A stretch of DNA of 64,000 bases, from the NCBI GenBank assembly GCA_002118135.1, contig BDIU01000074.1:99881-163880 (forward strand), written 5' to 3'. The notes below the pieces were generated by a model, which was not told the DNA's origin, searched no databases, and worked only from the letters and a program-made list of their open reading frames with translations. Source of the DNA: Trebouxia sp. TZW2008. Lineage: Eukaryota > Chlorophyta > Trebouxiophyceae > Trebouxiales > Trebouxiaceae. Below are positions 10,392 through 51,700 of this stretch, in pieces (the stretch's first letter is position 1; every line of letters starts with the position of its first letter). Made by a program: the position numbers and the translations under genes.

Positions 10392-13300
10392 ATGTCAGTT
10401 CCAAACCCTCTGAACCCTTTCACAGTGAGAGGTGGAAGGCTAGCACGCGGTGGAGCTTGGTGCTGGGCTGTTGTATTGTGGTTCCTCTTCTTCTGTTACT
10501 GCGTCTTCACTTTGATACAGGTATGAAGCAATGACGCATCGGCAAATAATCATTTTGTGTATGCTGGCTGCAGCGCTGACACATCAAGCACACCGCTAGA
10601 CCTGCAGCAGCACACTCTGTGCCTCGCATGAGTAAGATCTCTAGGCCTAGATCTGCTGTTGAACAATTGTGAGGTACATGACAGGAGCAGTCGTTGCTGC
10701 TAACTGCTCCTGTGAGCATGCAGCAGTGCTTCCATTTGCATGCAGTGCCACCACTGTCTCTATTCACTGTGTCGATTACATTGGGGACATGCATATGCAG
10801 GCTGTACAAAAGACACAGGACCCCATGCTAATGACACAGGCATCCCAGCATATACCTGTGACAAGTGAAGGGGAGCATCACAGGAGCAGTCATCACAGCA
10901 GTTCTTGCGTTTGCGCCTGTTGTCACCACTGCTGACTTTTTCCCTCACTGACATGCAGGCGGTGCAGAAGACACAGACTCCCATGCAAACCACCAGCTAC
11001 ACTGGTGACTCTGGCTTCATTATGCACTCAGTTGACATATGCCTATCAGAACAAGCAGCATCACAGAAGCAGTCATTACAGCAGTTCTTGCGTGTTTGCA
11101 CAGTGCCACTGCCTTCTTTCTTTCTCACTCTGATTCCATGGTGGTCATGCAGGCCGTCCAGAAGAGGCAGACCCCCCCTTTAAACTGACAGCTATACCCA
11201 GGGCATGCATTCAGTTGACACATGCCTATCAGAAGCAACAAGCAGCATCACAGCAGTCATTACAGCAGTCATTACAGCAGTCATTACAGCAGTCATTACA
11301 GCAGTCATTACAGCAGTTCTTGCGTGTGCACACACTGCCACTGCCTTCTTTTGTCCCTACTTTGATTCCGTGGTGGTCGTGCAGGCTGTACAGAAGAGGC
11401 AGACCCCCATCCAAACTACCAGCTACACCCAGGACTCTGGCTTCACAAGGCATTCATTTGACATGTTCCTACGAGCAGCATGGCAGAAGCAGTCATTGCT
11501 TGCATGTGCACACAGTCCTGGTGCATACTTTGCGATACCCTATGTTGACAAAATTGTGTATATGCAGGCTGTACAAAAGACACAGACCCCCATACAAACC
11601 ACCAGCTACACCCAGGATTCTGGATTCACAATGCCCAGCGTGCTGCTTTGCTCATTTGGGCAGTACAACCTCGGCTCTTTCACAGCAGAGTATCCAACCC
11701 TGTTCGCTGGCAACTTTTGGGTGCAGCGCAGCTATGAGGAGTTGCTATCCCCAGGTATGACTACTTGTGTATGTTGGGCACAGGAATGTCCAAAGGAAGT
11801 AACTAATGCCAAAATGAATGCATATGGACTGGGTCGCAGCAATGCTGTTAGCATTTGGATGGCTTGCATGACTTTTGTGTGAGCTGGTGTTGTGATACAA
11901 CTCTCATATCTGAGTGACTCATCCGCAGGTGTGGCTAACCATACAGAGGCAGACAACCCTACAGCCCAGACAGAATTGAACTTTGATGATGCGTACGGAC
12001 GCAACGATTTAATTACGTTCTCCCAGAACTGTGGCAACTTATCTGGTTCCAGAGGCCTGCCGCACCTGTCCCTGAATGATTCCGGCTTCTGCAACTTTAC
12101 AACTCCTCAGTTGATGGGTCTCATCAGATCTGCCGCCATCAATGAATCTAGCGCAAAAGAACAGTTCAACAACGTCACCAAGACAAGATGGTGTGTCATG
12201 TGGACACCATACCGCTTGACTTTAGACGACCCTCCAAGTGGCGCCTCAAACGCTTCACTAGACACTGGTAGTGCAAGCGCTAGACAGCTTGACTCTAGAG
12301 ATGGTTATCGCCTTAGCATCTCTCTGAACGGCACAGCAATCATGGAAGAGCAAGCACTGGCAAACGTGCATGAAGACGATGGTAGCATAACACCAGCAGC
12401 TGACCGCAGATTCCCACACACCATGTCTCTGAAGTTCATTGAGTTTAGTGACACCCGTGAAGAAGAGTGGCGGACTGGCAGCCAGTCCAGCCAGTACTTG
12501 AAAGAGGCGCTGACAGCTGGGGACCCAGATGGCTTTGAGCTGGTCAGCTTGGACAACCACTATGAGATGTCGGTTCAGAAAGTTGTCACCACCAGACTGT
12601 CAAGTGCTCAGAAAGTCGGGTGGCCTTGGGCACCTTGGCCTTGGTCTGATGAAACTCCCTATCAGGTCATTTACAATGCCAATGACTTTTGCGATGCATG
12701 CCTTATAAAGAGCGCAGGACTGCTTGATGCCCTGTATATGTGTGTGCATTAGCAGCATCAATCAGCACAGGCGCTGTGGTAAGGTGAATGGCAACAACAG
12801 TGACATTGGTTGCTAGATCTGGGTTGCAGGAATGCTCCAGTCCTTTGCGTGCATGTAACATCAACAGATATCATGCAGCACTGCATGGGTGTCACATGTC
12901 ATGGCAGCAATTGACTTTTCGGAAGACCCAATGCCAATAGAGGGTGTGCCAGACCTTGACAAGCCAAAGCCTCAAACTGACTGTTTTACTGCCAAGCAAC
13001 ATATCTTCCAGCGTGTCATCCACCAGCATGCAGATGTGACATCCAAGCCATGCTTGCAGTGCCTTGCATGCATCAGATGCCTGCTGCTCAACCATTGTAT
13101 GCATGTTGCATCTGGTTTGCATGTGTTTCATCTGGTCACGAGCCATAGCTCCTCCTTTCTTCAGCTTACTCATGGTCATCAGGTTTTGCCAAGCCATGCT
13201 GGCTGACTGCAGGTTGATGTCACATTCTGACTGACTGAGGGGTGCTTCTGTGCTTGCAGTCAACAAGCTACCAAGTAATCTCATCCACTCTGCTACCATA

Positions 13301-17462: not shown

Positions 17463-17866
17463 TGCAACACGTACGTCCACGTTGGTGTATGCTGTGACTC
17501 TGCATGGGTCGTGTTCGCAGGATCGTGGCCGGGCGTACCTGCCCTGCCTGTCAAATTGCTGATGTAAAGGCTCTGCGAAAAGCTGATACAATTGGGCTGC
17601 CGGAAGGATGCCTGCTGCGAGCAGGACGAATTGTGTGTCGATTTGCGCAGCGTTTGGCAGCTGTCATGCATTCATGCATTCGTACAAATCAAGCGCAACG
17701 CGAGCAAGCGTTTCGTGTTTACGGACTCCGCAACAACAAGTGTGGCCAATATGTTGGCACAAGCATCACGATTAGCGTCCTGTTTCGGAGCACATCAGCA
17801 AAAAGTGCCTAAATTTTAGCCACAGAGCCACATATATTGGCTTGCTGGGACTCGCTTCCAGGCGTG
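17463..17866. promoter_or_regulatory. CpG-rich divergent promoter, carbonic anhydrase (-) / ABM protein (+)
   Basis: 404 bp lie between the two start codons. CpG dinucleotides are frequent here and into the first exon of each gene, then fall away. No clear TATA box was identified. Confidence 0.5.
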
Positions 17867-26635: not shown

Positions 26636-27242
26636 TTCCACGCGTATTTTAGTGTTGATACAGGCTAAGATACTGTTCTATCGACAAGCGATCTGCTCAA
26701 GAACCTGCGTCAGCGTAAGCGCGAACGGCGTAGTCTTTCATGCCATCGGCGATCGCGGTGTCATTGTCAACTCGATGCGCGCCCGACTACAGTGCTGCTG
26801 GGGCAGTACTGTCTCAGGTGCCCGGCCGAAGATCAGTAGCGTGCTGTGCAGCAGTTGGGTTTTGAATAGCGCAGTAATACTGGGCCCCATGTGATATCAC
26901 ATAATCAGTAACCGAGCTTGCCTATTTTGAAGGCTGCTGCAAGTCCTGCAAAATTGCAGAAAGCATAACCTGATCATGCAGTCGCTTTGAGAAGGCATGC
27001 CGAAGGGCGTCATGCACATATCAATAAGAATGGTGTGATTACATATGCCAAACACATGCTGTGCCAAGGAGTTCAAACGAAATTGATGAACAATGTTAAT
27101 GATGCGCGATATGCCTCTGCAAGCTGCACATGACCTGCTGCATGTTTGTGATAAGACTGATGAGACAGGAGAAGCAGCTGCATCATATCGTGCACAATGT
27201 GTTGGGCCAATTGCCAGCTTATAACAGCTTTGCAGAAACAGA
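26636..27242. promoter_or_regulatory. Promoter region of the FUSC-like gene and 3' flank of DDB1
   Basis: The part next to the FUSC start (about 26520-26830) is CpG-rich (for example CGCGAACGGCG), matching other starts in the window. The rest, up to the DDB1 stop at 27243, is AT-richer and shows no exon. Confidence 0.5.
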
Positions 27243-30200
27243 CTAGTGCAACCTGCTCAATTCTTCAACAGTTTTGTTGACTTCTTCAATGGTAGCTCCA
27301 TGCCCCATGCGGTCTACTACCCATTGCATGGTGTCCCTATTGAGGTCTACAAACTGCTCTATCAAATCTCCATCAATGAAATTCTTGCATGTTCCCTTCT
27401 TCCTTTCACTGCTGAATGACCTCCATTCCTCATGGCTCAAACCACCTATTCCATTGACTGCTTGCCTCATACAGTCCTGTGCAGCAAAACAGTTGCAGTG
27501 AGCAAAGCCTGAACATGCCATGCAGCTGACTTCTGTGTGCTGGCAGACAGAAATGAAATCAGCAGTTGAAGATAGTGCAGGGCAGAAAGACAGTCTTCCT
27601 ACTGTTGCACTGACTTCCAATTATTGCTATGCTGCCGGGCCTCACATCAAACAGTCACCATGCACTTGACATGCTGTGAGTGCAACAGAGCAAAGGCTGA
27701 CAATATAAATGTTTGCAAAGGACACAGCATCTGCACAAGTCAAATTCATCTTCACACAGCTCTCAATACATCATTCTAGTTTGATGCTGACCTGCAATCG
27801 AGCAAGGAACTCATACTGCTCGCGTGGTATGCTGGCCACAACTCCAATGATGCCCAGAATGGTTCCAAACAGCAGCGTTGGGATGTGGGCAGTCTCACTG
27901 TCTGGCAGCTGCATGACCAGGCTGCCGTGCTGGAAGCGGTTCACCATGTCCCCAAGGTGGTACTCCCCAACCACCTGTACCACACCAAATCATATTCAGC
28001 AAAGCCAGCCATGTCTCAAAATCATGACACCATGTCCCCAAGGTGACATTGCCCCGTCACCTGCACCATACCAAATCAGAAGAGCAAAGCCAGCCGTGCT
28101 GGAAGCGGTTGACCATGTCTCCAAGGTGATACTCCCCAAAAACCTGTATCATACCGAGTCACGTTCAGCAAGGCCATACCAAGTCACACTCAGCACAGCT
28201 CGCCAGACCTTAACATCACAACACGGAAGCTGTAAGATGTGCAGCCAGAGGTGATTCACCAGGATCTGCCATCCTCTGCTCAAGCACAAAATGATAGCCT
28301 GCATCATGCAGCACGCTTGCTTGCCTGCCTACCTGCCTGCTTGCTTGATGACCAGCAATAAGCAAGGCCCCGAACTTTCATAGCAGTCAAAACATCAGGC
28401 ACGCAATCAGCATGCTGCATGACCACAGCATTCACGATGCAGATTTTGAATGCCATGTTTGTTTCCAAGACTGGGTGTGCATACCTCCAGCCGATTTCGG
28501 TCCTCATCAGCTGCAGCATCGCTGTTCTTGCGTACAGTGAACAGGTTGTAGTTGACCTCCGCTCCCAGGTAGGTGTCATCATCCAGCACGTCCACAGCTG
28601 TCATGTAGTTTGAATGGAAGTCCTTGGCCCGCACCTCCAACACATTGTCCTCTGGCTTGTACATCAGCAGGTATATGCTTTTCATCAAATCGCCTGCATT
28701 GCAGAGGCCAGTGTCTTGCACTATTCAACATGTGTTGCACCAGGATGCCTCTGTCATTTGCACTCTTGCATGCAGTCGCAGCCTAAACGTACTAGGTGAC
28801 GTTTTGCCAAACAGATGCAAGATGTGCACCACAGTTCTTGCACACTGCCAGGTACTTCAGGAACACAACCCCAAGACCAGGACGTAAGCCAAGAGGCAGC
28901 AATCTTATCTTGTCCCTGCGTACACCGCCTGTGGACAAAGTGCTGCATCACTAACTGCTGTTCACATTTAGCAGGCCAGGCTGGCAGAACTGCACACAGA
29001 TGCTGAGCTGTTCGCAACAGCAGAACTCGTGCAAGGCAAGTGACAACAAGCAATACAGCATTACAGTTTAGGTGTCAAGGGCAACTTGCAGATGGCTGTG
29101 CAGCTTGCCTACAACAATGAAGTCCCCTCTGCAGGCAAGGTAGAGGGCCAGCACCAGGCCAGACTGCCCTGCTCCGGCCACCAGCCCTCTGCTGGAGTCC
29201 TTCTGCAGCTGCCAGTCATACAGCTGCACCCGGCTGTTGATGCCTGCTATCAACTTACCCTGCACACACATGCCAACCCACTTCATCTTGGGCAGATCAA
29301 TGTCCACAGACATCAATCAATGCCAAAGTCTGTGCATATGAATGCAACCAGAGCTTTATCAAGGCTGATAGTTTCTGCGGTGCTGCTGCCAGTCGTACGG
29401 CTACACCCAGCTGTTGACGCCAGCTATCAACTTGCCCTGCAAGCACACACCATCCTGAGCGCTTGTAATTTTTTCGTTTGCTGTCTGCTTGTACATGCTC
29501 AAGCGAAATCAGAATGATGATGTTGGTGGCAGTGACAGTGACAGGGACAGCAGAACTGACAATGAGAACGGTCATGATGATGGAAGTGACAACATGTTTG
29601 AGCACAAGAGCCAGGTGCATATGGGCCAAAACCTGTCTTGCCAGGCAAGCTTGTATGAAGTATGCTTGTGGACTCAGTATGTCAAGAAGCGCTGCATCAA
29701 ACGATGTGACACAGAAGTGCACCAGATACAGAAACACAGAGTGCAGTGACTGAGTTGCAGCAGAGGAAGCCAAGAAGTACCTGGAAGCCACTGATGGTGT
29801 ACACTGCCCCTCGGGTCTCCTTCTCACACACTATATGTAGCTTCTGCTGCTGGATCTTAGTTTCAAGCACTAGTATCCTACCCTGCAACACCAGGTCAAG
29901 CTGCCTCAGAGTCACGAAAGCACAAGCCCTTTTCCCTTGGGCACTAGTAGCTGCTCATTGTTGGAGGAAGGGCAGCGTCGCTGCACATGGCCACAGAACT
30001 TGAAGTGGGACCTGTTACCAGTCATTGTGTTCAGTGAGATACTTCGTAGCCGCCCATTGACCAGAATGGAAGTGGTAAATACAATAGGCCTGATGCAGGC
30101 AGACGATGATGCATCATGCATGCATTACAGTAATACTCCATCACACAGCAATTGGCAGCAGCATAGTTCAGAGCAGTGCGTCGCAAAGCTGATGCATTGG

Positions 30201-33200
30201 CTCAATTTGCCAGGTGTGACTCTTCGTCTCAGCAGTTGTCTCGAGATAATTTGCTTGACAGCATTACCTTAGTGGGCTCCTGTTCTTCAGGGATGGCATA
30301 CGCTGTGCCAACCACATAATAGGGGTTGGGGTCATCTGCCAAGGTGATGCTGGTGCAGGAGCACGCCATCTCATAACGGTGCAATGGCAGCACGTCCAGC
30401 GTCTCAAATGTCTGATCATCTATCAGGCGGATCTGCTCTTGACTCACGCCGTTGCCTGCATCAGAACAGCCTCTCTTGGCACTGCATGCTGCCGACTACA
30501 GGAGTAAGGAATCTTCAGTATCTCAGCTGTCTGGTTGTCTATCAAGCGGATCTGTACAAGGGCACAGCGCACTGACAGCAGCACGAGTCTCAGCTGTATA
30601 GACAGGTAGGTCTATACAGGTTGAGCAGCGATACCAATCAGTCATTGCAAGAAGATCTATCATTCAAAGTAGACTTATATGACATGTAACACATGCTGCC
30701 ACTGCTGGCAGACTTTGAAGCAATGCGCCTTGTCAGTCTGGGTGCTGTGCTTGTGAATGTATTAGCATGAGCATGCATTGGCTGCAGCGCATTGCATGCC
30801 AACAGCTGTATGCTTATAGCATATCTTACCTCGCAAATGTCACTGGGTACAGGACAAGTGTTCCTGTAATGTCGCCAGGCATGAGCATAGTTACAAACAA
30901 TGTACCCACTGACAGCTGCAACGAGCTTTCTGCTTGTTCATTATGCTGCTTGCTATTCAAGGTAAAGTTAAGGGCAGATCATGTGAGAAGCATTGATGAC
31001 ATTGCACTTGCTGCAATGTTGATAGCAGCAATGTCTGAGATCATTGCCTGTGAGAGCACGCTGCCCACACAATTTACCTGCTGCACCTTCTGCATATGGT
31101 AGATACTCTTCACATACTGCTGGCCAGTGACAGGTAGGTGATGAGTGTCTATCATATGTAGAAGTTGCAGCATTTATTTTGTGCAAATAAGTCACTCTTA
31201 TGGCAGAGCGACCAGCAGATAGTCACCAAGAAGACATCTTCTGCAAAGTTTACATTGAAAGTGTTGAAACAGCATGAGGGCTGGTGTCAGGGTGTGCCAG
31301 ACACTTGATGTGATGCAAAAAATGCTAGCATGACAGGCGAGCAATCGGTCTCCACATGACGATAGCTGAAGTCCCAGAGCATTGACAGGTAAACTCAGGA
31401 CATTTCTGTCAAATCTGATGTGACAGAGAGCTGCAATATACACTGCAGTGTGTTGGGCCAGTTGCCATGCCATATGATGCATGCAGATGCTGCCTGCCTC
31501 TGTGTTGAACTTTGAAAGAGCCCTGACAGGCAAAGCATCAGCAACAGGCAATACCCTTGACCACCCTTGATCCAGCGTACTCGAGAGATGAACAATTACC
31601 ATCGCTGCACACAACAGCAGAAATTGTTTGCAAGCTTGAGGGCAGTAAGGAGCACGCTGGGTTTGAAGAGGGTTCAGTATGTGATGCAGTACATGCTCGC
31701 TGGCATGAGTGGCACAAGGTGAGGACTGCGTGGGCTACGATCAGGCTTGATGCAGACTACCCTGGAGACGCCGTGAACGATGTGTCAGCCTTTCATGATT
31801 GCAGGACAAACCTCCCACAGCTTTGTGTGCTGACAGAACAACGCACCCAACAAATGGTGACCATTGCCATGTAGGCAGCACATGCAGCAAAGAATGGCAT
31901 ATATGTCTTGCATGATATGACTGTGGCAAAGTGTGCTGTTCTTCGTACTATAAATTTGACATCATTGATGATTGTACGGGACGTATGACAGGAGGTGGTA
32001 ATGAGGAAGCAGAGAACGTTGCTGTAGACCATAGCCAAGTGGCTGGTCGAAGCATAGGCTGACTGTGTGCAAATTGCTTGCTGGGAAGGAAGGAGGAGGC
32101 AGTCTCAAGCAAGCAGGGAATGCTGCCTTCAAAGTGTGCAAATGGCTGTTGAAAGGCCTAGACAGAGGTGGTGATGGGGAAGCAAAAATTGGAAAACCGG
32201 GACCTTTTGCAAACAGTGTGTGAGTGGCTTACTTGCTGGGTGAAATGAGGTGGTGATAAGGAAGGTGCGTGAGGCGTCCTGATGGGCTAGCCTGCGCGCC
32301 TGCTCCCCCAGGGGCACTGCTCGGATGTGCAGCTTCTGGATCTCGTCTATGCTGCCGATGCTGAGGCCTCCTTCCTTGGCAATGGCCAGGCTGTCTGGGA
32401 AGCTGGCGCTATTGAAGCTGGTCATCAGGTTCACCTGCACACAGTATGACTCTGGCAGGTGAACAATGGATTGTCCTGATCAGGAAACGCAATGTAGAGA
32501 AATATCTTGCTGATAGGACAATGCAGTGATAGATCAATCGCTGCATTCTGATTGCAGTGGCACCTGTGAGAAGCACAATATAAAGAAAGACTTGCAGTTG
32601 TGTGCGCAAATTGAGCCATCATTTGCTTTGGCTGCAGCCAGTCCAATTAACAAGCTGTGTCATCCTGCAGGTATATACATTACACACTTGCTTGATGTGC
32701 CTTATCAGGGAGCGTCTGTAACATACGGGATTCAGACCCACAGCCATTTCATGGAGAAGACCCGAAACTCAGGGCTAACAACTTCTCTACGTGGCCAAAA
32801 ATTTGAATCTATGTACGGACATGCTATTTTCTGGATCTTAGACGAATTGTGTTACAGCGTCATGTGCGCGCTTGATACTTGCTGATGCATACGACAGAGC
32901 ACAGGAGTGCGCACCTCATTCTCATTGACGTTGGAGTACAGCAGCTTGTTGTTGCTGCTGTAGATGACTGTGGGCCTGTCGCTGGCAGCAAAGACATGCT
33001 TGATGCCATTGCTCTGAAAGGTCTTGAGGGTGACGGGCTTGCTGCCCAGACTCAGCTTCTTCCTGTCACTCAATTCCCCTACAAGCAACAGCTGAGTCAG
33101 GCTCAGTGAGTTCAGTACCTGCAAGTTGTTGACCCAGTAAGAACAGCAAATTCTTGTTGCTGCTGTAGATGACAGTCGGCTTGTCACTGGCAGCAAAGAC

Positions 33201-36200
33201 GTGCTTGATGCCGTTGCTCTGGAGGGTCTTGAGGGTAACAGGCTTGCTGCTTAGAGTTCAGCTTGTTCCTATCACTCAACTCCCCTACAAGCGACAGCTC
33301 AGTCGAACCCAGTGCTTTCAGCAGTTGCAAGTTGTGGACCCAATGAGTACAGCAGCTTCTTGTTGCTGCTGTACATAAGAATGAGCCTGTCACCGCCGGC
33401 AAAGATGTGCTTGATGCCATTGCTTTGGAAGCTCTTGGGGTTGACGGGCTTGCTGTCCAAACTCAACTTCTGCCTGTCACCCAGCTCCCGTACCAGCCAC
33501 AGCTGAGTCAGACTCAGTGGCATGAGGCAGTCAGAAAGCTAATTACCCCCAGATATGCACAACGACCAGCATGCTGCAACTTCGCTTTGCTCACGTCAAA
33601 GAAACCAAGGAACTGGCAACAAGATGACAGCAGACGCGGACGCAGCCTGGCTAAGTGACTGCTTGCATGTTTTGTGAGTGAGAATGCTTGATGGCAGTGT
33701 GTATGGATTTCTGACTGGCATGTCATGTGGTGACGTTGTCACTCTTGCCAAATAGCCTAGACATGAGTTCAGTCAAACTTGTCTTCTCAAGCATTGTTGT
33801 GAATAAACTGATGCAAGGAGTTGACTTGTATGCAAAAACACCCTGTATCAGAGCAAAGGGAGTGCAACAGCATGAGTTGAGGCACTACATGGTTCATGAG
33901 ATGCAATGCAGATTGCCATAAACAGTGCAGCTTTGAGTATTTGTACCTGATTTTGGACTGATATGGAAGGTAATGAGATGCCCATCACCAAGCGCACACA
34001 GCAGGTATGGCACGCCTTCAAATTGTGCAAACAGCAAGCTCCTGGGGATGACCTGCAGCAGACACACACTTGCACTCTGACCTCACCTGGCTAAAACACT
34101 TTGCCTCATTGCGCACAACAGCAGCAAAAGACCATGCTCCCATGCTGCTGATAATGTTTGACTGTCTGTCGTTGACACTCATCACCTTGCCAGGACAGAG
34201 ATTTGCTACCAGCTTGCAACAGCATTTTGCTTCAGCATATGTGCTGACTCTGGGTCTTGGTGCACGTCAACTTGGTATTATATATTTCGCTGTTGCAAGC
34301 ATTGCAAAGGTCTGTTGATGCATGCATCAGCCATGGGTCTTCGATCTGAGATGAGCAAGAAGAAGGACAGCAAAGCACACAAATGGATATGGCAGAAGGA
34401 GAATACCTCGCCCAGATCTTCTGATAGTAGGGGCTGCAAGGAAGGCAGACGGAAGAGCAGTAGCTCCTGCTGCCAAGTACCCACTGCTGCAAGCTCAGCC
34501 CTCTCACTTGACCCACCTGCAACACACTTGCGCCCTATCAAGTCGCCGCCACACAGCACAGCTGTGACCACTGTTCCAACAGTTGTTGTGCCATAAGAAA
34601 TCATCATCAACATTTGCATGCAATTGGGTATGAAACCCTGATGCCAAATAGTCAACCAGATTTCTAGAGCTGCGAGCCAGCCTTTGAATGCCGAGCAATG
34701 AGGTATGTTGGTTGCATTCAAGCTCGCTGAAAACCCAACCAGTACCAGCACAGGGTATCTGAGCGACCACCCTGACATGCACAGGCTCAACACACGACTT
34801 GTCAAAAGCAGCATAGGCTGACCTATGGGCGTGAGATCTAGGCAGGCCACCTCTATCTCCAGTTTGTGGTGCGCTGCCTGCTTGAGCTTGCCCCGTTCCA
34901 CCTCCAGATACACCAAGTTGCCCTGACCAGTTGCCACCAGCACCTGTGCCCCCATTAAGCCTCTTCAGCACTAGCCTGAGCTGTATGTACTCATAGACAA
35001 AATGCACAGTGCTCAACAAATCAGTCAATCAATGCACAGCGCATGACATCTGCAGAGAAGCTCAAGAGTGCAATAATGCACCAATACCACATTGTGATTG
35101 TCCAGCACCAAAGGTATGAGCAATACGGTAGCCTAGATATGCTTGCTTGCGCAAATCTAGTAGGCAGCAGATGACCCAATGCCAAGCCGATTCATTGTGC
35201 AAAGTGATATGAGAAGCCTGCCTGGGTGGGGCTGGCAGATGCTATGTTGATCTGCAGGCCGCTGGGGGGTAGCCACTCGTCCTGCAGGGTTCCAGAGGGG
35301 GCGGCCATGAGGCGCACACCTTCTGCTGTCACCTGCACCATGTGGTCATCTGCCATGCTTCCACACCACAGCGTCTGCAACACCCAGTCCATCATCAGCA
35401 TCATAATGTACATGGCAAGACAGAGGCAACACAAATTGTACTACTAGGAGAGTTACAATGCTGCCTTATGCAGAAAGGCACACTGTAAAGACATTTCTTG
35501 TAGCACTTTTGACATCTATGCAGCTACTGGCAATGCTGCGACTCTGGGACAGCAGTGCATAAGAGCTGTGTCAAAATGTCAAGCATAATGCAGTGTCTAC
35601 CTGCTGATCTACGTCAAAGCCCTCGATCTCTGCTTCACCAAGCTCATCCTCCTCACTGATCTCCAGGATGCGTGTCTCACCAACAAAGGCAAGGACTAGG
35701 TATGTATCGTAGCTATCGCTGCTGCTCTTCTGTAGGTTCCAGATGCCCTTGATACCTGCATGCAGCCAAGGCAGCCAATCACAGCCCTGAAGTGAATGAA
35801 GACGTGCCATTTGCACTGCCATGAGCCTGCGATGATGCCTGACATACAGGGTTCACATATAGAGGCGCAGAGAATGGCAAGAGCGGCAGAACAAGTGGCG
35901 TGAGGTTGGTGAGTTGCTGCAAGCTGCTTTCTCCCGAGCATTTGCAGTACAGCTGTGACTTATCCTTTACAGCCGACATCTACACGAGCCTGTGCAGTTA
36001 CACAACAATCCTGAAATGCCAACTCAGATGGTGATCATTTCCTGGAGCATGCTGTTATTTCCACGCCAAATTGTTCTGCAGCGTTGGTTGGTCACCGCTT
36101 GTTACAGCAGTTATTGGCAAATTGCTTCTGAACCCCCAAGACAACCATCACGGACACACCTGGCAGCTGCACAGCAGCTTCCTGCATCATGCCAATGCTG

Positions 36201-39200
36201 TCTCGCACAAGCCTGACCACTGGCTTGCTCAATCATTGTCTGGGCATGCTGCAGCTTCAGTGTTCAGACATGGCGCAGCACAAACAGCAACTCCGCATTG
36301 CGTACCTGGCAGCTCCACAGCAGCTTGCTCGATCATGCCGATGCCATTGCGCACAATGCGCAGGCTGGCGCTGTGATCCTTGCCGCTGCAGGTCACCACC
36401 TGCCCCTGCCCCTGCCCCTGCCGCTCCAGATCCACAACTGCCAAGTCAATGATGGGCCCCAGGTTGGTCCATGTATCCACCACCTCTACAAAGTTGCTGG
36501 GCTGTGCTGGGTCCACTGCGTCTGGGTGCAGCCTGATCAGCTGACTGTCCCCATACAAGCTCCCCTGCAAAGCAACAGTGCTGGGCTTGACCGCAATTAG
36601 CCAAACTGCAGCTAGCTTTGCTGGAATGATGTCCACAACTGTCAAAGCTGAGTGTCAGCTTGAGGAGGCGCCATGTTAAACGTAGCAAGCAGCTGTATGA
36701 ATGCAAGGACAATAGTCACCAGGCTGTGCTGGGTTACCCATGAAGGTACAACCTGATTGGTTGGCCGTCTCAGTACCAGCAGATTTGCATTGCCCTGGAC
36801 GAGCTTGTAAGCTGGTTGAAACTCAAAGTGAGCTGGCTGTCTCCCATACAACCTTCCGAGTCATATCGGACACAGATAATGATCCTGGCCCCTGGCAAAA
36901 GTGAGGAAATCGTGGTCTCTTGCCAGGCACAGGAAATGACCCCTTGCAAGTCACAGGGGCGCCAGCTCATCAAGCCACATGCTTGACTCAAGCTAGCATG
37001 CACGTGCTCGCTGCAGCTCTGCAGACTCACCACAAAGACGACGCCAGAGTCAAGGTAGGACAGGGTAGAGGGGGTGGAGATGCGGCCAAGGGCCTCCAAT
37101 TTGAGGCCCACCACTCGCTGCCCATCATTGCTCAGCACCAGCATGTGCAGATTGCCAAGGGTGTCCCCCAGCAGGTATCTGGAGCCATCAGGGTCCACTC
37201 GCCCTACAGCCTGCACAGAATGGATGCTGTCACTACTATCATCATTGACATGCTTGCTAGTGAGGCTGCGTGGCCCTGTCAGGTGTACCAAGAAGCTGGG
37301 AATTGAGTCCCAACCCTCAGCCAGCTTGCAACAGTGCAGATTGGTCTCAGTAAAGTCTCTGCAAGCCATGGGTAAATTCAATGGTGCAGAAGTAAATAGA
37401 TGCAGTAAGCCCCTGATCTTGCATGCCTCTTGCATGCTTGTTTCTGCTACTCAGGGTGCATGCTTGCAAACATGCAGCTTGCTTGCCGCTGTATGCATGC
37501 TATGCTGCTGGCACTGAACCTGCATCAATCTTGAGGTGCCCTGTGTTTCACTGCGGCACTATGCACCAAAGATTGCAAAGATGGACAGAGATGGTGGCTG
37601 CAGACATATTGTGGGCACTTGAGCCAAAGCCGGATTTGAGCTGCTGACCTGTACAATGGTGGCCTTCACTTGGATAGACTTGACAACTTGGTCATCTGGG
37701 CTGCGCTTCTTACGCACATATGCAATCACAGACTCCCCAACAACCACCACACCCCCCTGAGGTCCTGGCACAGGGATCAGCATTGATGCTCCAGGATCTA
37801 GGTTGCTCTGGCTGAAGGGGCCTTCTACAAATTCCTGTATATGGACACACTGTGCTCAATTACTTTCTTGAATGCGCAGAGGCATGTTGGAGGCAACCAT
37901 GAAGAGCAGCAGGGTATTGCCTCATCTTTTAGGTTAGTACAGGACCAAACTGGAGACATTTGGTTGCTCCAAGACATACCTAGCTGGGCCTGCTGAGCCT
38001 GTCTAGCATGTGCTTTGAATGAATGAAGGGAAAGAATGTGTCGCCTGTCTTGAGAGCAAGATAGGCAAAACACACATTCCCCTTCACTCGTTCACTCATT
38101 GAAGCTGAATGCAGAAGATCACCGCTTCCTATTGCTGTGCATGATTCTCGGTCAATAAGCGGAAAAACTGTACTTCTGCTTGCGTCTGGGACATATAGCA
38201 TATATCATAAATCACAGATGCAGCCACATAAGGCATGAGTCATGAGTGCAGACTTGACCTGTCAGGGACGTACCTTGTCTTTTATGGATATCTCGTAGGT
38301 TCTGAGGTGCCGCACATCCTTGTTATCATGATACAGCAGCGCCACCGTTGGACGCGCACAATTGTACAGAAACTCCATGCTGAGAACTTGCAGCTCATCG
38401 ACTCTAATGTTGAAGGCCTCATGAAAGCCTGCTGAGTCCATGGGCATGACCTGAAGAAGTTCCAGAAGTTGCTCAGCGCTAAAGCAATGCCACAGATTCA
38501 ATATAGCAAGTCAGGAGGTATCTATGTGCTGAGTGACATCCTGATCTGCGCATCCCGGCACAGGATTGTTGCGCGGGTCAATTTGCCAGACAGCAGAAAG
38601 GCTGCAGATCAAGCACTGCAGTAAGTGCATTGGCGGGATCAGCATCACCTTCAGCACAGCCATGGTCTTCAGCAAAGAGACGAGATACAGTTGTGCTGTC
38701 TGAGTCAACCATGAGAAGCAGCAGGCAGGGTGAAGACCAGTGAACCACCATACTCTTGATCTCAGTGACTGATACTGTAAAGCACTTGCGTGTTAGGTGT
38801 TACATATCGGCCCCAACGAATTGCATATTTCGCAATTTGCACTGCATCTCAATCATGCACACTCTCAAATTCTGCGTATCGCGTATGACGTTTTGCATAT
38901 TGAGTGTTACGTATTGTGATTCACTGGTGAAGAGTGAGCGAATAGTCACAGCACATAAGTGAGATTTAGGTGCTGACCTTTAGCAGGCCATCATACATCT
39001 GGACACCAATGAGCCGGCAGTCAGGGTCAACAATGCCAATTTGGCCATGCTCAACAGGCCGCCCAGTTCTGTCTGCTAAGTCCCCTCCAGCTCTAGTCTG
39101 CAGATTGTCTGAGCAGCAAGGTGCATGTCACGATCAGCTGAGGACAACAGATACAACCAAAAGATGCAGTCAAACTTGAATGCTGCCAACAAGGCTAATT

Positions 39201-40469: not shown

Positions 40470-42945
40470 ATGACGTCCTCGTCGAGAAACTTGTTGTTGA
40501 ATCGATCGTGGACACAAATCGCTGAGCAATATGAAAAGTAAGTCTCGGAAATGCTTACATAGTGCTGTTCAGCTCATCGATCTCAGGCCTGAGTCTGCAT
40601 GCGTCGCAGGCATTTGGTGCCTCGCTTCATGCCATGGACAAACTACACAATGCAGCGTTTTGTCGCACAGAAATTGCCTCATGGCCCCATCTTGGTGCCT
40701 GCCTGTGGCCCAGGTACTGCCTTGTGATCACCTTGTTGCATCACAGTCTTCAGAGCATTACACACCTGATGTCTCCAGGGCACGAGCTAGTCATGCTTGC
40801 GAACGCATTCTCAGATGGGAGACACATCATTGGCATTGACCTGGCTGAAGGCATGGTGGACCTCGCAAACTCCCGCTGCAAGGAGGCAGCCATAAGGTTA
40901 GTGCAACATGAAGTGTGTCGCGTCGCGATTGAGCTTTCCCCACACTGTTGGTATCGAAGTCACACCTTTGTGAGTTGAAACCGCTGTATGCACAGCAAAC
41001 GTGCAACAAAAAGCTATGCAGGATGAATGGAAAAGCTGATCAAGCAGCTGATGGAAAAGAACGCGACCCATGTGATCGTGAAAAAGGTCACTGCATGACA
41101 AAGTGCAACTGGCAGTGAGTTACGAGGAGAACTCTTCTCAAGTCAGGCTGCATCTGACATGTTGTGTTAATGTCAGAACACTCAACTATGCAGTCTCTGC
41201 ATAGCAGCGACAACATCAAGGTACTTGCTGGACATCTTTTTGTCCCCTTTATGCATGACTTCCCGCCACTTGCAACAGTGTTTCACATCAGCGGTTTGAT
41301 AAAGACTACAACTTGTTTTGGTGCTGCACAGCGGCAGAGCATGGGCCGAGGTGGCAGACGCCTGCGACTTGGCCACCAGATTCCCCAATGCAGCTGGTGT
41401 CTTCTCCTTATTTGGGCTGCAGCAGCTGCCTCAACCCCATACTGCTCTAGCCAATTGGGTCAAGACCCTCTGCCTAGGTCAGCTTGCCAATTTGCAGAAT
41501 AGCTGATTCTACTGCTGTCAATGCAAAACCATCCACGCTGGAGTTCAAAAGACATTGATTGCGTCCAATCATCAGAATTTGTGCTGACAACAACTTGATG
41601 TTTGCATGCTGCTATTGTCAATTCATCAACCAATCAACAATGATTGATTTATTCATTTATCAACTCATTCTTTGGTGACTGTCCATGATCATCACGTAGT
41701 GATTGACCACCGAGAAAGCAGATCAGTGATGACAGCAGCTGGACAGCATCTGTCTTGGCATGTAGGGGGATCACTAGCAGTAGCCTTCTGGCCAAGCCAG
41801 GTGGAAGACAAAGGGCCGTGGCAAAGGCTAGCTGACTTGTCCACTAACAAGCCCAGGGCAGGCAAAGCAGCCTCATCCCAGGTCCACCCACTAGCCTTGC
41901 ACCACAAGCATATCTCCTCAAGCGCTCTCAAGCATCTGTTGACTCTTCTTTGTGATCTGACTCATGATTGTTCACTTGCTCTGTCAGCCAAGACATCTCC
42001 TGCTAAGCAGTGCCTGTGCAGTGATGCTGTCTTTTTGTCGCTAGACAGAAATCCTGTTTCTGACACTGTGCAGCTTGCGTCCTGTCTGCAAAAACCAATG
42101 GTGCGTATTTGGCATCTGATAGTCTGGATTGACCTGGTTTGTCTGACCAAATAGGTAGTGCATTGGCATGTGAGGCAGCAAGGCAGTGCATGCTGGTGAC
42201 TTAATGGGTGACACGTTGGCATGTGAGGCAGCAAGGCAGTGTGTGCTGGTGCAGTACAGAAGGTGAGCTGGGAGCAGCAGGTGCCGGGTTCAGCACTGAA
42301 GGAAGGAGGCATATTGGTTGCCGATGAGCAGCCAGCCTTCCCCATGCATTGGGACAGCATTGCTCACTTCTGGCAGGTCAGCCTGCTGGCCCATGTGTTC
42401 TGCACAGACTGTTTCGAACACTCACCTTAATGCTGCCCAGATCATTGATTGCAACTGCTGCTGCCCCACATACTCTGCAAAGACTGTTGGCAATACAGCA
42501 GCTTGATGTTGCCAAGAGCACCGGTCAAATCTGCTGATGCTGCATATGCTCTGCACACAGACTGATGGCGACATTGCACTCGAGCTGCTGATGTCACTGG
42601 TCAAAAGCGATGCCTCAGAAATCTGACCAAATGTGCTTGCAGATGTGAGAAACATGGACACTTTGATTGCAATTGCAAAGCTCTCTGCTTGCCAAGCCAC
42701 CTGCTCGCCAACTCAACAGGCCGGGAGATTTTTTTGTAAAGCCCAAAGCAAAGACTGTCTGCGCTTTACAGGTGATGACGCAAGCAGGTCCATGGCATGC
42801 GCGCTTGTTGCAGCTGGGAGAAGACCACATGGAGGCATTGAGGCAGGAGTTCATGGCTCCATATGCCAGTACTGCAGATGATCAGATTGAGCACTCCCCT
42901 CACGCTAGGCTATTTCTCATTCGCAAACAAGCAGCTGCTTTGTAG
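40470..42945 (+). CDS. Class I SAM-dependent methyltransferase, 7 exons, about 275 aa
   Basis: Exons 40470-40537, 40610-40713, 40779-40896, 41332-41477, 41766-41861, 42255-42376 and 42772-42945. The N terminus reads WTQIAEQYEKHLVPRFMPW. The SAM-binding Rossmann motifs follow: motif I ILVPACGPG, HIIGIDLAEGMVDLANSR (acidic Asp binding the SAM ribose), ADACDL, and GVFSLFGLQQLPQP as the motif-IV/V strand and loop. Then come VAFWPSQVEDKGPW and a C-terminal MTQAGPWHARLLQLGEDHME. The layout is that of UbiE/Methyltransf_11-type small-molecule enzymes; the substrate cannot be told. Intron 5 fits best with a GC donor (GGGCAG|GCAAAG) and acceptor GTGCAG|TA; a GT donor at 41882 with an acceptor at 42262 is also in frame. 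No transit peptide is evident. Exon 1 is only 68 bp. Confidence 0.91.
42160..42254 (+). repeat. Tandem duplication of an intron 3' end in the methyltransferase gene
   Basis: A roughly 40-bp segment (TTGGCATGTGAGGCAGCAAG core, continuing to a GCTGGTG end) occurs at 42162-42199 and 42216-42252. The second copy runs directly into the exon-6 acceptor. Confidence 0.9.
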
Positions 42946-44162: not shown

Positions 44163-47100
44163 TCATGGCATGTTGCTTTGATGATGTAGTGACAGGCACT
44201 TGTCTTGGCAGTGTCTCTGAAGGTGTCTAGGACATGCACTTGTCTTTGCGACGCCTCTGAAGATGTGTACAGCTCTGCTGAAGGGTGCACAGTACATACA
44301 AACGCATGCAGTTGTCTTTGCGCAAGAGCTGAACACATGCCCCACCTGCTGCTCTGCTAGTTTTGGCGTCGGCCAGTCCGCATTCACACCACCTATGATC
44401 AGCTTCTTGATACCCATGTTTCTGCACAAGCATTGGCAGCATCAGCGAACATGAGGTCAAGCTGATGCGACAGGTTGTGGTCTACCAAGCAAGCTTCAGC
44501 AAACAAGCCTTGACTTGATTCAACAAGCCTATGCGATCCCACTAGTCATGCATGGACAACCTTCATGCACAAGCGTCAATCTTAGCGTGACAGCTGGCTC
44601 ATATGGAAGGCTATGCTGCATTGGTCATGCACATCATTCAGCCGCCGTGAGCGAGTCCACAATGGGGAGCTTACTCTTGACTGAAATTGGAGAATGCATT
44701 GATGAGCATGTCAAAGGCAAATTCGTCACTCGTGCCCATGTCCACCCTGTACCACAGAACACAACGTGATTTCTTGGCTACTCACAACAGCAGCTCAAGG
44801 CTGCCAGCAAGCGCAGCTTTGCTGCAGCACATTCACCAACAGCAATATTGTCAATGACAGATTGTACACACTAGCACAGATGGATGACTGATCACCGATT
44901 CGAGGCAGCAAGTATGGTGCTCAGCAGTGCGTGGAATCATCACACAGTTGTCGTCCTATGTGAGCTATTGACCATATTCAAAGCCATGAGTCAAATCAGA
45001 TGCCTGCACTCATGCTTGCAGTTTGTCCAATGCTGACATGATGTCAGGGGCAACAGCAAAATGGTGCATTGCAGAGCACATGATATAGGGCAGAACAAAT
45101 GACAAGACAAGAGGCAAGGCACAGGGCAGGGCATAGGGCAGGGCACAGGCCAGGTCAAAGGGCAGGGCATACAGAAGGGCGTAGGGCAGGGCAAAGGGCA
45201 TGGCAAAGGACATGTTACAAGGCAGAGCATAGGGCAGGGCATAGGGCAAGGCATAAGGCAGGGCATCGGGCAGGGCATCGGGCAGGGCATAGGGCAGAGC
45301 AAAACAGGCCAGAACATGGAAGTGGATTGTAGGACTGACCAGCATCTAACCCAGTTGCCTTTCTGCTCAGTGTTGGACATATCATGCATGAGGGAGTGTC
45401 CAGTGTCACCACACATCTGGGCATTGTAGTCGAAATTGCTCACACTGTCTGATGATGCCCAATACACCTGCAAACTCACAAAAGGCCTGACTGCCTGATT
45501 TGCATTCACTGCTGCCATTGCCATGCAATGCAAGCCAAACATGACAAAGAACGAGCTGCTTGTTACTGCATATCATTTCCCAGCAGTGCCCTCATACATG
45601 TATAGGCCACAAAGCACATGAGGTATGCAGCACAGGTGTTCTGACTCTTCAGGACAATGTCAATGACATTAACAGTGTCACACATGCTGGCACAGGTGAG
45701 CATGCTGAGAAACCAAACAAGCTGTGCAGCACAGAGCTGGCAAATGCAGTTGAGTATGCTATACTTCTTACAAGGAAGAATGCAAACAGACCTAAACTTT
45801 GCTTTAGAGAGTGGTCAGCTCCAAAATCGAGACTGATCTGCGGGTTCTTGCCATTGAACGCTCACAGCAGCTCACAATCAAGTTGTTACACGAGCTGAGT
45901 GAGAGAGTCAATAACAATTATCATGCTACATGTATTAGCACAAGTGTCAAACAAGAATGCTGAAGAAACAGAAGCAGAAAGACAAGTGACTGACCTGCAG
46001 GTTCTCACCATTGAAGGCTCCCAGGCGGCCCATCATGAACCAGCTGCTCAGAATCTCTGCCATCATGTCTGTCTCATTTGCCGTGGGCGCTCTGTACAGC
46101 TCAAACCAAAGCTGCAGGTCACAGAAACAGCTTGGCACAGGTCATGCTGTCTAGTGCACATCTACCAAAACCAAAGGTCGTGCTGTCTAGTGCACATCAC
46201 CCAACACAACAGGTGTGTACAGGTCATACTGTGTAGTGCACATCGCCAAGACAACAGGTCGGCACAGATTGTGCTGCCAAGTGCACGTCAGCAAGGAAGT
46301 TCTGTGAGCTGTTGAGGGTGCTTGTACAAATGCAGGGCCAGGCTGTCAGCGGTGCCTCAATAGCTAGTCTTGGGCAAAAGCGCACATCAGCCACATGTAA
46401 ATGACTACAAATTGTAGTGATTGCAACCTGACATAGCCATGACGCCTCATTGCTGTTCCTTCCTCTTTTCCTGTTGCCCTCTTTGGTGCTTTGCTGTGTT
46501 TCCTTCTTTTTACATTTCGTCTGTCTGCTTTGCTTGTCTTTGGACACAATCGAAATTGAAGTACAGGCGGCTTACCCAGAGATCAAAGGGATCCACATCT
46601 CTGAATTGGACCTCCATTTGCTTGTCTGCGCCTGTCCTGTCTTTGAAGATGTTCTCACCCAAAACCTCTTGTCTCTGCAGTGCAAGGCAGCAAGCAATCA
46701 AAGACACACTCCCCACGTTGCGGACACACAAACAAAACCTGCTTAGCTTACGTTTTGAGTTGTGGGGCGTGGCTGGTTGGGCTCTTGCAACTCGTCTTCA
46801 AAGTCTGCTTCAGTTTCTGCTTCATCTGCATACAAATCTTCTAACTCTCGCAGCTCTCGCATCTGCCTGTATGTGCAGTCACAAGATGAGTCATCTTTCT
46901 CCTTTGGCACAGCAATTTGTTGGCTTGGCTGTAAGCGCTTGGTAAATGTGCACAGCACAGTGACCGTACACAGTATACAGCAGGATAACCAATACAGCAT
47001 ACAGCATACAGCATACAGCATACAGCATACAGCATACAGCATACAGCATACAGCATACAGCATACAGCATACAGCACAGTAATCGTACACCATACTCAGT

Positions 47101-48756: not shown

Positions 48757-51700
48757 GGTGGCAGCATGCAAACCAGTGTTTTGTCCCCAGCTGAAGCTGC
48801 TGCTTCCCTGCACAGCCTTGCAAAGAAAAGTCAATGGAAGCCAATGCCTACAAGGCTAGAGCTGGTATGCAGCTATCGAGCACAACTGCCTGTGTTCCTG
48901 CTTCAACTGCTCAGCAGTCATCATGATATGCAGCCTATGTCTCAGCACAGCTGCACAGCCGCAAGCAGTTGCTGTCCAGCGAGACAGCACTTGTCAACAC
49001 GTCTTATGACTGAACAGCTTTGGATTGACGTTCTATTCAAAATCCTTCAAACACATCTACACCTTAGCAACTACACAGCGTGACATGCAGCAGACTAGTA
49101 CAAGCTGCAGGACCTCATCAATTGCTTGCATTTGATGTTGCATGCTTGCTGACAGGGAAGGACTGACAAGGTTTGGAAATTAGTCAAGCTTGTGAAGGTT
49201 GCAGCCGCAAAAAGAGCAACGTCTGGAAAGCTTGAAGCACATGATTCCACCAGGGCAAAGGCTGCTGCAGAGGCATTGCAGAGTCTAAATGCAGGGCAGG
49301 CATGTGACTCCATCTGGGCTCTTGCCGTTATGGGAGGAAGCGCTTTGTACGAAGCCCACACAGATGCTCTGCTTCAGGCAAGCTTCCTTACAATGATCAT
49401 CTTTCTGAGCTGGTGTTGTGTCAAAACCTGAACTCCAATTCACATCTGAGTGAGTTCTCTGCCTGAGTTGTGACCACTACATCTTGACTGCATGTTCACC
49501 TGATAGCATTTGGGCTGGGGGCTGGTCGCAAGGTGTACATGCAATGCACATATATCTTAGTTTGTTCATATAGTGGGCGTCCTGTTGCATGTCTTGCCTG
49601 CATCATTGGCTGCATGCAGAGCTGCTTTAACCGAAGCAGATGTGCATGCTTTGACACCAGCTGTAAGGCCTTCTGTGTGATCTGCTGCATGGCTCCCAAA
49701 GCTAAATGCCCTTCACAACAAAACGGACTGAACTATTTGGACATCCTTGTGGCTTTGTTGACAAAACAGCTACACCTACTGGTCAGGCAACGCTGCCCCT
49801 TCTAGAACCTTTAAGGAGTAGTACTGGCTGCAGGTGGGTCAGATCCGCAGTCGCATGAAGCTCTGTTGTTTTCAAGACAGAGGAGCTGTTCATCTTCTGC
49901 TATCAGCTACAGGCGTTTCGGTGGTTTCTGCTGCACTTGCTGGCAGTCCAGGCAAGCAACGATTCTGTTTCAGGTGGGACAGAGCTGTCGCTGGCCGCAG
50001 GTGACTGGGTAGCAGGTCGCTGACATGTGCTGACATGTGCAAAGATCACTGGTGGCGAAGAGGTATTGCCATGGAGAGGGACAGTTGCTATATGATGGCA
50101 AATGGGTGGAAGAAGCATAGCGTAGAGTTTGAGTAAACAGGCACCACGTGACATACTGGTGGTAACTGCAGGTGGGCCAAAACTGTGACTGGCAGCAGGT
50201 TGCCGACATGTGGTGGGGCCTGGCCACAGCCCGATAATGCACCCCTGCCTTGCCTGCTGCAACACAACAGCTCTCTCCTCAAGACTTAGCTACAGGCCCC
50301 TTTCAGTGTTGCTGCATTGCTTACAAATCTTGTTGTGCCAGGCAAGGCAGGTAGCAATGGTGGTGGCTGCAGGTGGGCCAGATCTGTGATTGGCAGCAGG
50401 TAACAGGGCCGCAAGTTGCTGACATGTGCTGGGGCCTGGCCACAGCCCGCCACTGCACTCCTGCTCTGCCCGCTGTGACACAACAGCTCTCTCTTCAAGA
50501 CTTGGTTGGGTTAAAGCCCAGGCTTGTGACAGCCATGCTATGGGGCTGTGCTGTGCTGCTGCAGCAGCCAGACAGTGTGATTGCTCAGCTGACAACAGCG
50601 TTGAACCCAGAGGGCAAGAGCTCAGGTGCTACTTGCTTGTCATAATTCACGCGTGATTGCCTTCCTGACAAGCCTCTGTTGACCACAGCATCTTGCATCT
50701 TCATAATCACGCCTGAGTGACAATAATGACAGGCTACGCTCTTTCGTCAAGGTGCTAAATGTGTGGAGCACAAATTTTGTCTCGTCAGGCTGGCTTACCC
50801 CAAGCACTGCCGTAAGCATGCATGGGTTTTCTGCACTTGCCTCCTGTGTTCTGCATTTTGAGCTTGATAGAGCTTGATTGCAGCTCTTGGACTTGCAGTT
50901 CCAATTGTGATTGACACACAGGTTACAAATGCATGTCTGCAGCATGACTGTCTTTCGGATTGATCAAGTCCATTTTTGCTGCAATTCTTAGCTAGACTGT
51001 GTTCCATGCCAACTTAGGAGATTGCTGCAGCATCTGCCCTGCATGTGAAGGGAAAGACACGGTCTCAACATGAGTGTTTTCAGGGTTGAGCAAATGCAGT
51101 GGGCAGCAGTTGGCGGCGTATGCCTCGGCCATGTGCCTTTTAGTGACGTTGCACTTGTGAGCTTGAGACCTTGATTCATGCCAACTTGCAGATTTGCATC
51201 GCAATCTGCTTTATAAAAGTGAGTCTTATGTGCAAGCATAAAAGCGCAGTTGCTTTCAGGGTTGAGCAAATGCAGTGGGCAGCATCTGGCGGCAATGGCC
51301 TGGGTACTGTTGTCTGGATGCTCAATTGCATTGCGTTCGTGACCTACATAGTGCTAGGGCCGTCTTAAAGTTTCCGCAACGTTGTTGGACCTGCAGATGT
51401 TGGTCATGCATGCAATGTCCAACACCTGACCTGACTGATTTAGGATTGAGCAAGTTCAGCGGGCAGCAGCTTGCGGCGGTGGCCTGGGCCCTGTCCGTGC
51501 TGCAGCAGCAGGGCAGCCCCCTCTTCCAGCTGGTCTGGGCACACCTGCTTGTAAGACCCAAGCAGGACCTCACCAACAAGGCGGCTCTCATGCAGCTGCA
51601 CCAGGTACAGCCTTCTTGCTCAAAACTTTTGTCGAGCTTTTCTGTTGTTGCCATTACGCTAAGCAATATCCAAACCTATGCGACTTGCCTTCCAGTTGTA

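Follow-up and report, generated by a model that had tools for sequence, protein, structure and literature searches.

Minisatellites are tandem repeats with units of tens to about 200 bp and many near-identical copies. Introners and introner-like elements bring extra sequence into the introns of many genes and are near-identical at many loci. In tandem exon duplication, as seen in mutually exclusive exons, copies of an exon lie side by side, each of them a complete exon under coding constraint. Small tandem duplications are also said to result from break repair, reportedly through patch-mediated repair in rice and in a study of Pol theta end joining. The pertinent part of one report deals with fill-in by CST-Pol alpha-primase and with insertions shorter than 100 bp in human DNA (PMC8355091). 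As for introns, a passage of a 2012 review held tandem duplication to be the only route of intron gain shown in vivo at that time (PMC3443670), and examples of gain by this route have so far been few. Those described in that review, in a fission yeast study (PMC3629103) and for a potato RdRp gene (PMC4974935, which also mentions introners) involve, in the portions relevant here, tandem duplications next to or across splice sites, the potato gene having copied an intron-exon piece.

Here we report an analysis of 64,000 nt of Trebouxia sp. TZW2008 (assembly GCA_002118135.1, contig BDIU01000074.1, positions 99,881 to 163,880, forward strand), hereafter the window, together with 21 other regions of the same genome, a sample of 274 kb in all. 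Most of the sample comes from a single offset (20001-30000) on contigs taken at even intervals, to which five chosen places were added, and it is not strictly random; two repeat-rich stretches (L010 and L012) were excluded from the counts. Gene models other than those of DDB1 and the CCT genes were built ab initio with a home-made HMM and may label decoy copies as exons. This HMM recovered exactly 17 of 23 homology-derived CCT introns, the same 23 that had served to start it, and two junctions of L036 with low scores were among its training data. Two-TM, OPR, FUSC and methyltransferase are labels taken from an earlier, sequence-only reading of the window. The interpretation that we favour, with a probability of roughly 0.78, is that small tandem duplications occur throughout the genome, that introns are the sink in which they are tolerated, that constrained exons keep their fossils visible, and that old introns are lengthened as a result.

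The sequence-only reading had noticed intronic copies of neighbouring exon edges in several unrelated genes, and this observation was borne out for DDB1, CRSH, the two-TM gene and two exons of the OPR/RAP gene (Table 1). The DDB1 gene model matched solved DDB1 with 896.9 bits and carried exon-edge copies in 6 of its 20 introns, the previously noticed donor-side copy among them; CRSH, which contains a RelA/SpoT domain (Pfam), had them in 2 of 6. Four of the two-TM copies were recovered by repeat pairs and the fifth (~10795) by eye; all contain TGCAG, and the last (from ~11494) runs on into the working exon. In every array of the window that was fully read (DDB1 at 32.9-33.5k, CRSH, two-TM and OPR) the unit consists of an intron tail plus an exon head, and in the DDB1 array the decoys end short of the end of the exon. 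The arrays were rightly taken to be local rather than dispersed: in a search of the 68.5-Mb genome, the DDB1 (32915..33534) and first OPR arrays each matched a single place, their own, and the part of the two-TM array that was searched matched no other place, very common words being skipped. The OPR/RAP gene has a RAP domain (Pfam), and the possibility that its arrays are merely OPR protein repeats was dismissed on inspection, given that spacings of 176 and 361 bp are not multiples of three and that each copy includes an intron tail. Scans of the window for tRNAs and against Rfam gave no matches, and no DNA-level relatives were found in a scan of viral contigs. One DDB1 exon searched against E. 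coli genomes likewise had no match, a result that is uninformative.

Table 1. Exon-edge copies and arrays located in the window (positions are those of the window)
Feature	Position	Strand	Description
CRSH array	3068..3703	-	exon-head copies GMHELAESGGAAHAAYKG.., acceptors intact by eye; working exon 3002-3194; score 58.0, shuffled max 16.0
Acceptor-side copy of CRSH exon 4823-4972	5095..5148	-	score 30.0, shuffled max 13.5
Two-TM array	10795..11634	+	five copies of intron tail + TGCAG + exon head
DDB1 three-copy array	27919..28188	-	period 86 bp; decoy 28088-28155; score 50.0, shuffled max 15.0
DDB1 exon-head pair	29204..29455	-	spacing 177 bp; decoy 29401-29455; score 35.0, shuffled max 13.0
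Weak acceptor-side copy for DDB1 exon 30268-30455	30516..30554	-	score 23.0, shuffled max 16.5
DDB1 three-copy array	32915..33534	-	unit ~205 bp: ~44 bp intron tail + acceptor + ~145-150 bp exon head
DDB1 array, copy 1	33329-33534	-	AG lost
DDB1 array, copy 2	33123-33328	-	AG kept, 1-bp insertion
DDB1 array, copy 3	32915-33078	-	working exon, with its intron tail
Donor-side copy of 3' end of DDB1 exon 36304-36564	36158..36210	-	spacing 146 bp; score 35.0, shuffled max 14.0
Weak acceptor-side copy of DDB1 exon 36304-36564	36709..36780	-	70% identity; score 21.5, shuffled max 12.5
OPR/RAP array 1	49971..50503	+	three copies by eye; spacings 201/216/399 bp
OPR/RAP array 2	51068..51494	+	three copies by eye; spacings 176/361 bp

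The weaker form of the pattern ascribed to the FUSC and methyltransferase genes was not recovered. None of the nine introns of the FUSC gene, whose Pfam domain match lies below the cut-off, contained an exon-edge copy. The methyltransferase had been given no coordinates, and we took it to be predicted gene 41027-42945; on this assumption none of its four introns carried such a copy, its only repeats being of 53 and 75 bp and lying inside introns. Neither this predicted gene nor that at 53101-58580 matched a Pfam family.

Local duplication proved to be widespread, as had been proposed. The 274 kb contain 90 local head-to-tail duplication families, which cover 10.8% of bases and correspond to roughly one small duplication that can still be recognised in every 3 kb. 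Unit length was 52-219 bp in 88 of the 90, compared with the 140-240 bp first described, and copy number (span/period) was 2-5 in 69. When the sample was cut into 10-kb pieces, 201 local direct matches were found, compared with none in E. coli sequence (50 kb) and none, by the same search, in order-2 Markov sequence (548 kb); the repeats thus exceed chance, the comparison of density extending to these two controls. Among six conserved CCT/Cpn60 genes on other contigs, two (L032 and L035) have exon-edge repeats on both sides and a third (L033) on the acceptor side, and the other three show none at any exon edge that could be placed (no repeat in L034, repeats elsewhere in L036 and L037). On the best reading, the duplication process is genome-wide and general rather than intron-making. 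The algal families differ from minisatellites in having few copies, strong divergence and a unit taken from unique genic sequence.

Exon edges are nonetheless where the copies had first been noticed, and one alternative holds that the process is aimed at them, creating or extending introns through copied splice sites much as in AGGT duplication. Of 415 predicted introns tested, 53 contained a copy of their own flanking exon edge (score of 18 or more). At the same score, inverted introns yielded 0/684 and introns of other genes 0.0 and 0.2 per set; at a score of 16 or more the figures were 30 and 36 for own introns, 2 and 4 for inverted introns, and 0.5 and 0.9 per set for those of other genes. 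Copies on the donor side (32/343) and on the acceptor side (28/341) were equally common, and the predominance of acceptor-side copies, which describes the window well, does not extend to the sample. A splice junction fell inside 46 of 81 families versus 42.4±4.2 under random placement (P=0.23); there is no overall enrichment of duplications at splice junctions, and a special tie of the process to introns or exon edges is not supported. Fully intergenic families were fewer than random (5 versus 12.1±3.4, P=0.023) and acceptor-only families leaned high (17 versus 11.8±2.9, P=0.07), from which it follows that placement is not strictly uniform. Pairs that are partly recognisable lie mostly in coding sequence (0.70, n=25), which full-length ones do not (0.29, n=44). 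Since the working exon is under selection, the exon half of a duplication would outlast an intron half that fades, and exon edges would come to look special.

The age of the affected introns bears on the same alternative. Inspection by eye of 24 relatives' open reading frames retrieved for DDB1 showed that 19 have the residues A-G immediately ahead of the start of the exon, which is what read-through of an acceptor would give. For CRSH, searched with the working exon alone, 10 of 24 relatives extend upstream of the exon start with mutually unlike residues, and the other 14 start at a Met in the exon head. Judged from these reading frames, the intron positions of DDB1 and CRSH appear to be the same in relatives, and both introns look old. 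None of the window cases examined shows a new AGGT-type intron; the units extend over intron and exon that were already there rather than over an AGGT segment inside an exon. The best reading is that the duplications lengthen old introns rather than make new ones, which retains the growth of introns by local tandem duplication from the sequence-only reading and leaves their birth unsupported. The acceptor- or donor-bearing copies in introns, many with intact decoy sites, the lean of acceptor-only families and the precedent of the potato intron (the relevant part of PMC4974935) speak for a process aimed at exon edges; against the lack of overall junction enrichment and the seemingly shared intron positions, we consider it improbable. 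The alga differs from the potato case, as far as the latter's description in that part goes, in that both of the intron positions checked appear old and the copies resemble decoys, with the protein probably kept by use of the outer splice site.

We regard as quite unlikely a second alternative, that the copies are degenerate tandem exon duplications representing past or present alternative (mutually exclusive) exons or alternative acceptors. In its favour, an open homologous frame is kept in 29 of 60 copies; the other 31 have a frameshift or stop. Unique changes by codon position (1/2/3) number 8/7/4 in DDB1 copy 1, 3/3/8 in copy 2 and 0/0/6 in the working copy 3, and the third-position excess of copy 2 raises the possibility that certain copies were in use for a while. 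The pooled share of third-position changes is 0.49 (A) and 0.47 (D). Two neutral copies would give 0.33 and two constrained copies a strong excess; the intermediate values fit one neutral and one constrained copy. The extra copies look as if they evolve neutrally beside a working exon that remains under constraint, and codon-position patterns contain no overall sign of the copies being translated. Decoy splice sites do persist, as had been predicted: in copies that span the junction (11/28 and 11/32 matches do not and were left out), AG is kept in 13 of 17 (10.9 expected) and GT in 14 of 21 (13.3 expected), and selection purging these decoys was looked for in them and not found, a further point in favour of this alternative. 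Among the best 120 of 194 DDB1 matches and 24 CRSH matches from relatives, no decoy-type open reading frame was recognised by motif, although such frames may go uncalled. The algal copies resemble mutually exclusive exons in adjoining their exon and differ in being partial, as in the DDB1 array, and in their pooled neutral decay.

False tandem copies produced by the assembly, from haplotypes or misjoined reads, are very improbable. One region (L021) has a 162-bp N gap exactly between two identical 52-bp flanks, as such errors might leave; however, assembly error would give near-identical copies, whereas the best pairs of the families are 64-94.5% identical, and the DDB1 working copy has changed at third positions only and copy 1 evenly. 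An identity of at least 95% was reached by 0 of 81 families (best pair) and by 2 of 202 individual pairs, which leaves the description of the process as ongoing unsupported, bearing in mind that the assembly could break or collapse inside such repeats and young copies be missed. Insertion of introner-like or other mobile elements, for which one might cite the dispersed sequence contained in the window intron at 11755-11928, is scarcely credible and is rejected for the arrays tested by their single-locus matches and by the near absence of inverted copies (2, versus 202 direct, within 600 bp), exon edges moreover matching their own introns and not those of other genes; introners differ likewise, the array units tested being single-locus and derived from the neighbouring exon.

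We propose that many small head-to-tail duplications, with units of about 50-220 bp and commonly 2-5 copies, would arise at positions near random with respect to genes, probably when staggered breaks or paired nicks are repaired in an error-prone way. Where a duplicated unit includes a splice junction, the intact site lying farthest out, either the last acceptor or the first donor, would presumably still be spliced; the protein would be unchanged, and the extra copy would turn into intron and then decay neutrally. Small tandem duplications from break repair are alike in the local, direct, head-to-tail copying of short unique DNA. The algal copies are too diverged for junction microhomology to be read, and their units reach about 220 bp, commonly in 2-5 diverged copies, compared with the insertions below 100 bp in the part of PMC8355091 cited above.

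A more far-reaching view, which we offer as tentative and rather doubtful, is that this algal lineage has been under a mutator regime of tandem duplication, past or present, with a sharp unit ceiling near 220 bp, which would have written about a tenth of the genome, been a main source of intron growth and met a spliceosome that tolerates many intact decoy splice sites in each genome; the ceiling is reminiscent of nucleosome or Okazaki-fragment length. Annotators should be warned that gene finders may call stranded copies as exons, as our home-made gene finder did with decoy copies of DDB1. With recognisable duplications at roughly one in every 3 kb, many of them across splice junctions, such a genome would be a natural experiment on splice choice between identical competing sites, and would also inform how introns lengthen and which repair process lies behind small tandem duplications.

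Self-comparison of the window yielded 29 repeat pairs, of which 28 were direct, with spacings of 53-609 bp, and one was distant and inverted. The window occupies C72:99881-163880 of an assembly that spans 68.5 Mb in 527 contigs at a GC content of about 50%; sizes of 63-74 Mb (PMC11523091) and GC contents of 49.7-50.3% (PMC12712428) are published for Trebouxia genomes. Local direct repeats (E≤1e-4) were likewise found in 22 of 23 other stretches (222 kb). Two repeat-rich stretches of short contigs, L010 and L012, unlike the rest of the sample and perhaps satellite or centromere-like DNA, were excluded. In the remaining 274 kb, window included, 90 families of local head-to-tail duplication were called at E≤1e-6, 13 in the 64-kb window and 77 in the 210 kb elsewhere, so that the window is, if anything, poorer in families than average. 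The controls, 50 kb of E. coli and 548 kb of simulated sequence, gave none. HSPs comprised 202 direct pairs within 600 bp, 2 inverted, 8 distant direct and 1 distant inverted; units measured 52-219 bp in 88 of the 90 families, which cover 10.8% of bases. The duplications are local, direct, bounded in size and, where tested, confined to a single locus.

Exon edges were then compared, for 415 introns predicted by a small gene-finding HMM trained on this genome (exact on 17 of 23 homology-derived CCT introns, which had also been used to start it), with their own intron, the same intron inverted and introns of other genes. At a score of at least 18, own introns matched 28 of 341 acceptor and 32 of 343 donor edges, against none of 684 in inverted introns and 0.0 and 0.2 matches per set in other genes' introns; the copies therefore derive from the local exon and are absent from other genes' introns. 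The sequence-only reading had named copy-free introns or a dispersed element as what would overturn it; we found own-exon copies in 53 of the 415 introns, across 20 of 28 loci. The acceptor-side bias it described holds in the window and does not extend to the sample. Among six CCT/Cpn60 genes on other contigs, with exons placed by Pfam homology, repeats lay at donor and acceptor edges in two (L032, L035), at an acceptor edge in one (L033) and away from placed edges in two (L036, L037); the sixth (L034) had none.

Within the window, the DDB1 model was reconstructed exon after exon, some edges by eye, and its joined product matched solved DDB1 over almost its full length (896.9 bits). Of the genes in which exon-edge copies had been proposed, DDB1 (6 of 20 introns, one with the donor-side copy already recognised), CRSH (2 of 6), the two-TM gene (one array of five copies) and the OPR/RAP gene (two arrays of three) bear them, and FUSC (0 of 9 introns) and the predicted gene taken for the methyltransferase (0 of 4) do not; a predicted gene at about 53-58 kb also had none in six introns. 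Other features are listed below. The dispersed sequence in the two-TM intron is as likely a short transposon as an introner, since ab initio models of six other copies gave no consistent intron placement.

Features observed in the window and in other sampled stretches
Location	Feature	Observation
35223-35374	DDB1 exon	3' end apparently uses a GC donor (CCCAG|GCAGGC), by eye from sequence and protein
1919-2054	Repeat inside a predicted CRSH exon	in-frame 33-bp repeat; imperfect 11-residue repeat (GVSSAQMGAQS-like)
46992-47076	Perfect 7-bp array	ATACAGC x 12.1
60796-60983	5-bp array	TATGC x 37.6
45061-45303	12-bp repeat field, predicted intergenic	GGCAGGGCATAG x 15.8
11755-11928	Intron 3' of two-TM working exon	dispersed sequence; both parts match 15 other places (identity 76-92%)
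~11758-11843	its 5' part	
~11862-11931	its 3' part	ends ..GACTCATCC.CAG at acceptor
L010 (C7:20001-22195)	Short contig	dense direct and inverted repeats
L012 (C19:20001-30000)	Short contig	dense direct and inverted repeats; also distant repeats
L021:5671-5936	Gap in a sampled stretch	162-base N gap exactly between two identical 52-base flanks

The placement of the families gives no overall sign that splice sites are themselves the target. Of the 81 families with a period of at least 60, 46 have a junction within their copies, where random placement of the same pairs gives 42.4±4.2 (P=0.23); the observed count is inflated because the HMM at times labels decoys, the extra edge copies, as exons. 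Acceptor-only families tend towards an excess (17 against 11.8±2.9, P=0.07); fully intergenic families fall below expectation (5 against 12.1, P=0.023), and both-noncoding families do so to a lesser degree (19 against 25.4, P=0.07). The coding share was 0.70 (n=25) where the recognisable part of a pair covers less than 0.6 of its spacing, and 0.29 (n=44) in full-length pairs; the constrained exon half thus seems to outlast the intron half, an ascertainment effect that would explain why exon edges are conspicuous to a reader.

Copy-unique changes in the DDB1 array, by codon position, numbered 0/0/6 in the working copy, 8/7/4 in copy 1, which has lost its acceptor AG, and 3/3/8 in copy 2, which carries a one-base insertion. 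Pooled third-position shares of differences were 0.49 (28 acceptor-side matches) and 0.47 (32 donor-side), close to the ~0.47 that a simple estimate of our own gives if one copy is neutral and the other constrained. The homologous frame is open in 29 of 60 copies, which when pooled give no overall sign of coding status, DDB1 copy 2 leaning the opposite way. Decoy AG (13 of 17; expected 10.9) and GT (14 of 21; expected 13.3) are retained about as often as other dinucleotides, and hence show no sign of purging.

Protein searches of public sequence data recovered the DDB1 and CRSH exon versions of relatives. Every one of the 24 CRSH matches extends to the end of the working exon, as do the 120 listed of 194 DDB1 matches, 119 judged by motif and one by eye; none of these has a decoy-type ORF, although ORF callers may skip decoys. 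What reads as acceptor read-through directly before the exon in 19 of 24 retrieved DDB1 ORFs, and upstream extension into dissimilar residues in 10 of 24 CRSH ORFs, make both array-bearing introns look old. The nearest DDB1 relative among the listed matches (P0051) has the flank MPLSLTQLW, which agrees with that of the outermost copy 1, not with that of copy 3, as expected of an unduplicated ancestor; three diagnostic residues suggest that the duplication may be specific to the Trebouxia sp. TZW2008 lineage. Lys is common to all 24 retrieved DDB1 relatives and both decoys, with Asn in the working copy, so the decoys keep the ancestral residue.

As to whether the process is ongoing, best-pair identity ranged from 63.7 to 94.5% over 81 families, reaching at least 90% in five and at least 95% in none; just two of 202 pairs reached 95%, in stretches L020 (55 bp, 96.4%) and L021 (52 bp, 100%). 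More young pairs would be expected of a steady process, but at L021, where the identical pair exactly flanks a 162-base gap, the assembly breaks within a young tandem repeat, and such copies could be hidden.

The duplications would arise through error-prone repair of staggered ends. Their unit ceiling near 220 bp may be compared with the lengths of nucleosomal DNA or Okazaki fragments, a relation that is speculation. Among short insertions in human DNA, small tandem duplications are described as the most frequent; either fill-in by Pol alpha-primase or the joining of broken ends can produce them (PMC8355091). Tandem duplication is an established route of intron gain (PMC3443670, PMC4974935, PMC3629103). 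The literature searches showed, among the titles and abstract openings listed, no report of a genome-wide field of exon-edge copies in a green alga, and the word 'tandem' is absent from the main text of two Trebouxia genome papers (PMC11523091, PMC12712428), which weakly suggests that such a field is new. Our confidence is lowered by the three of six CCT genes with nothing at a placed exon edge; we nonetheless give a probability of roughly 0.78 to a general process of small tandem duplication, in which copies falling across splice junctions would be stranded in old introns and decay there.
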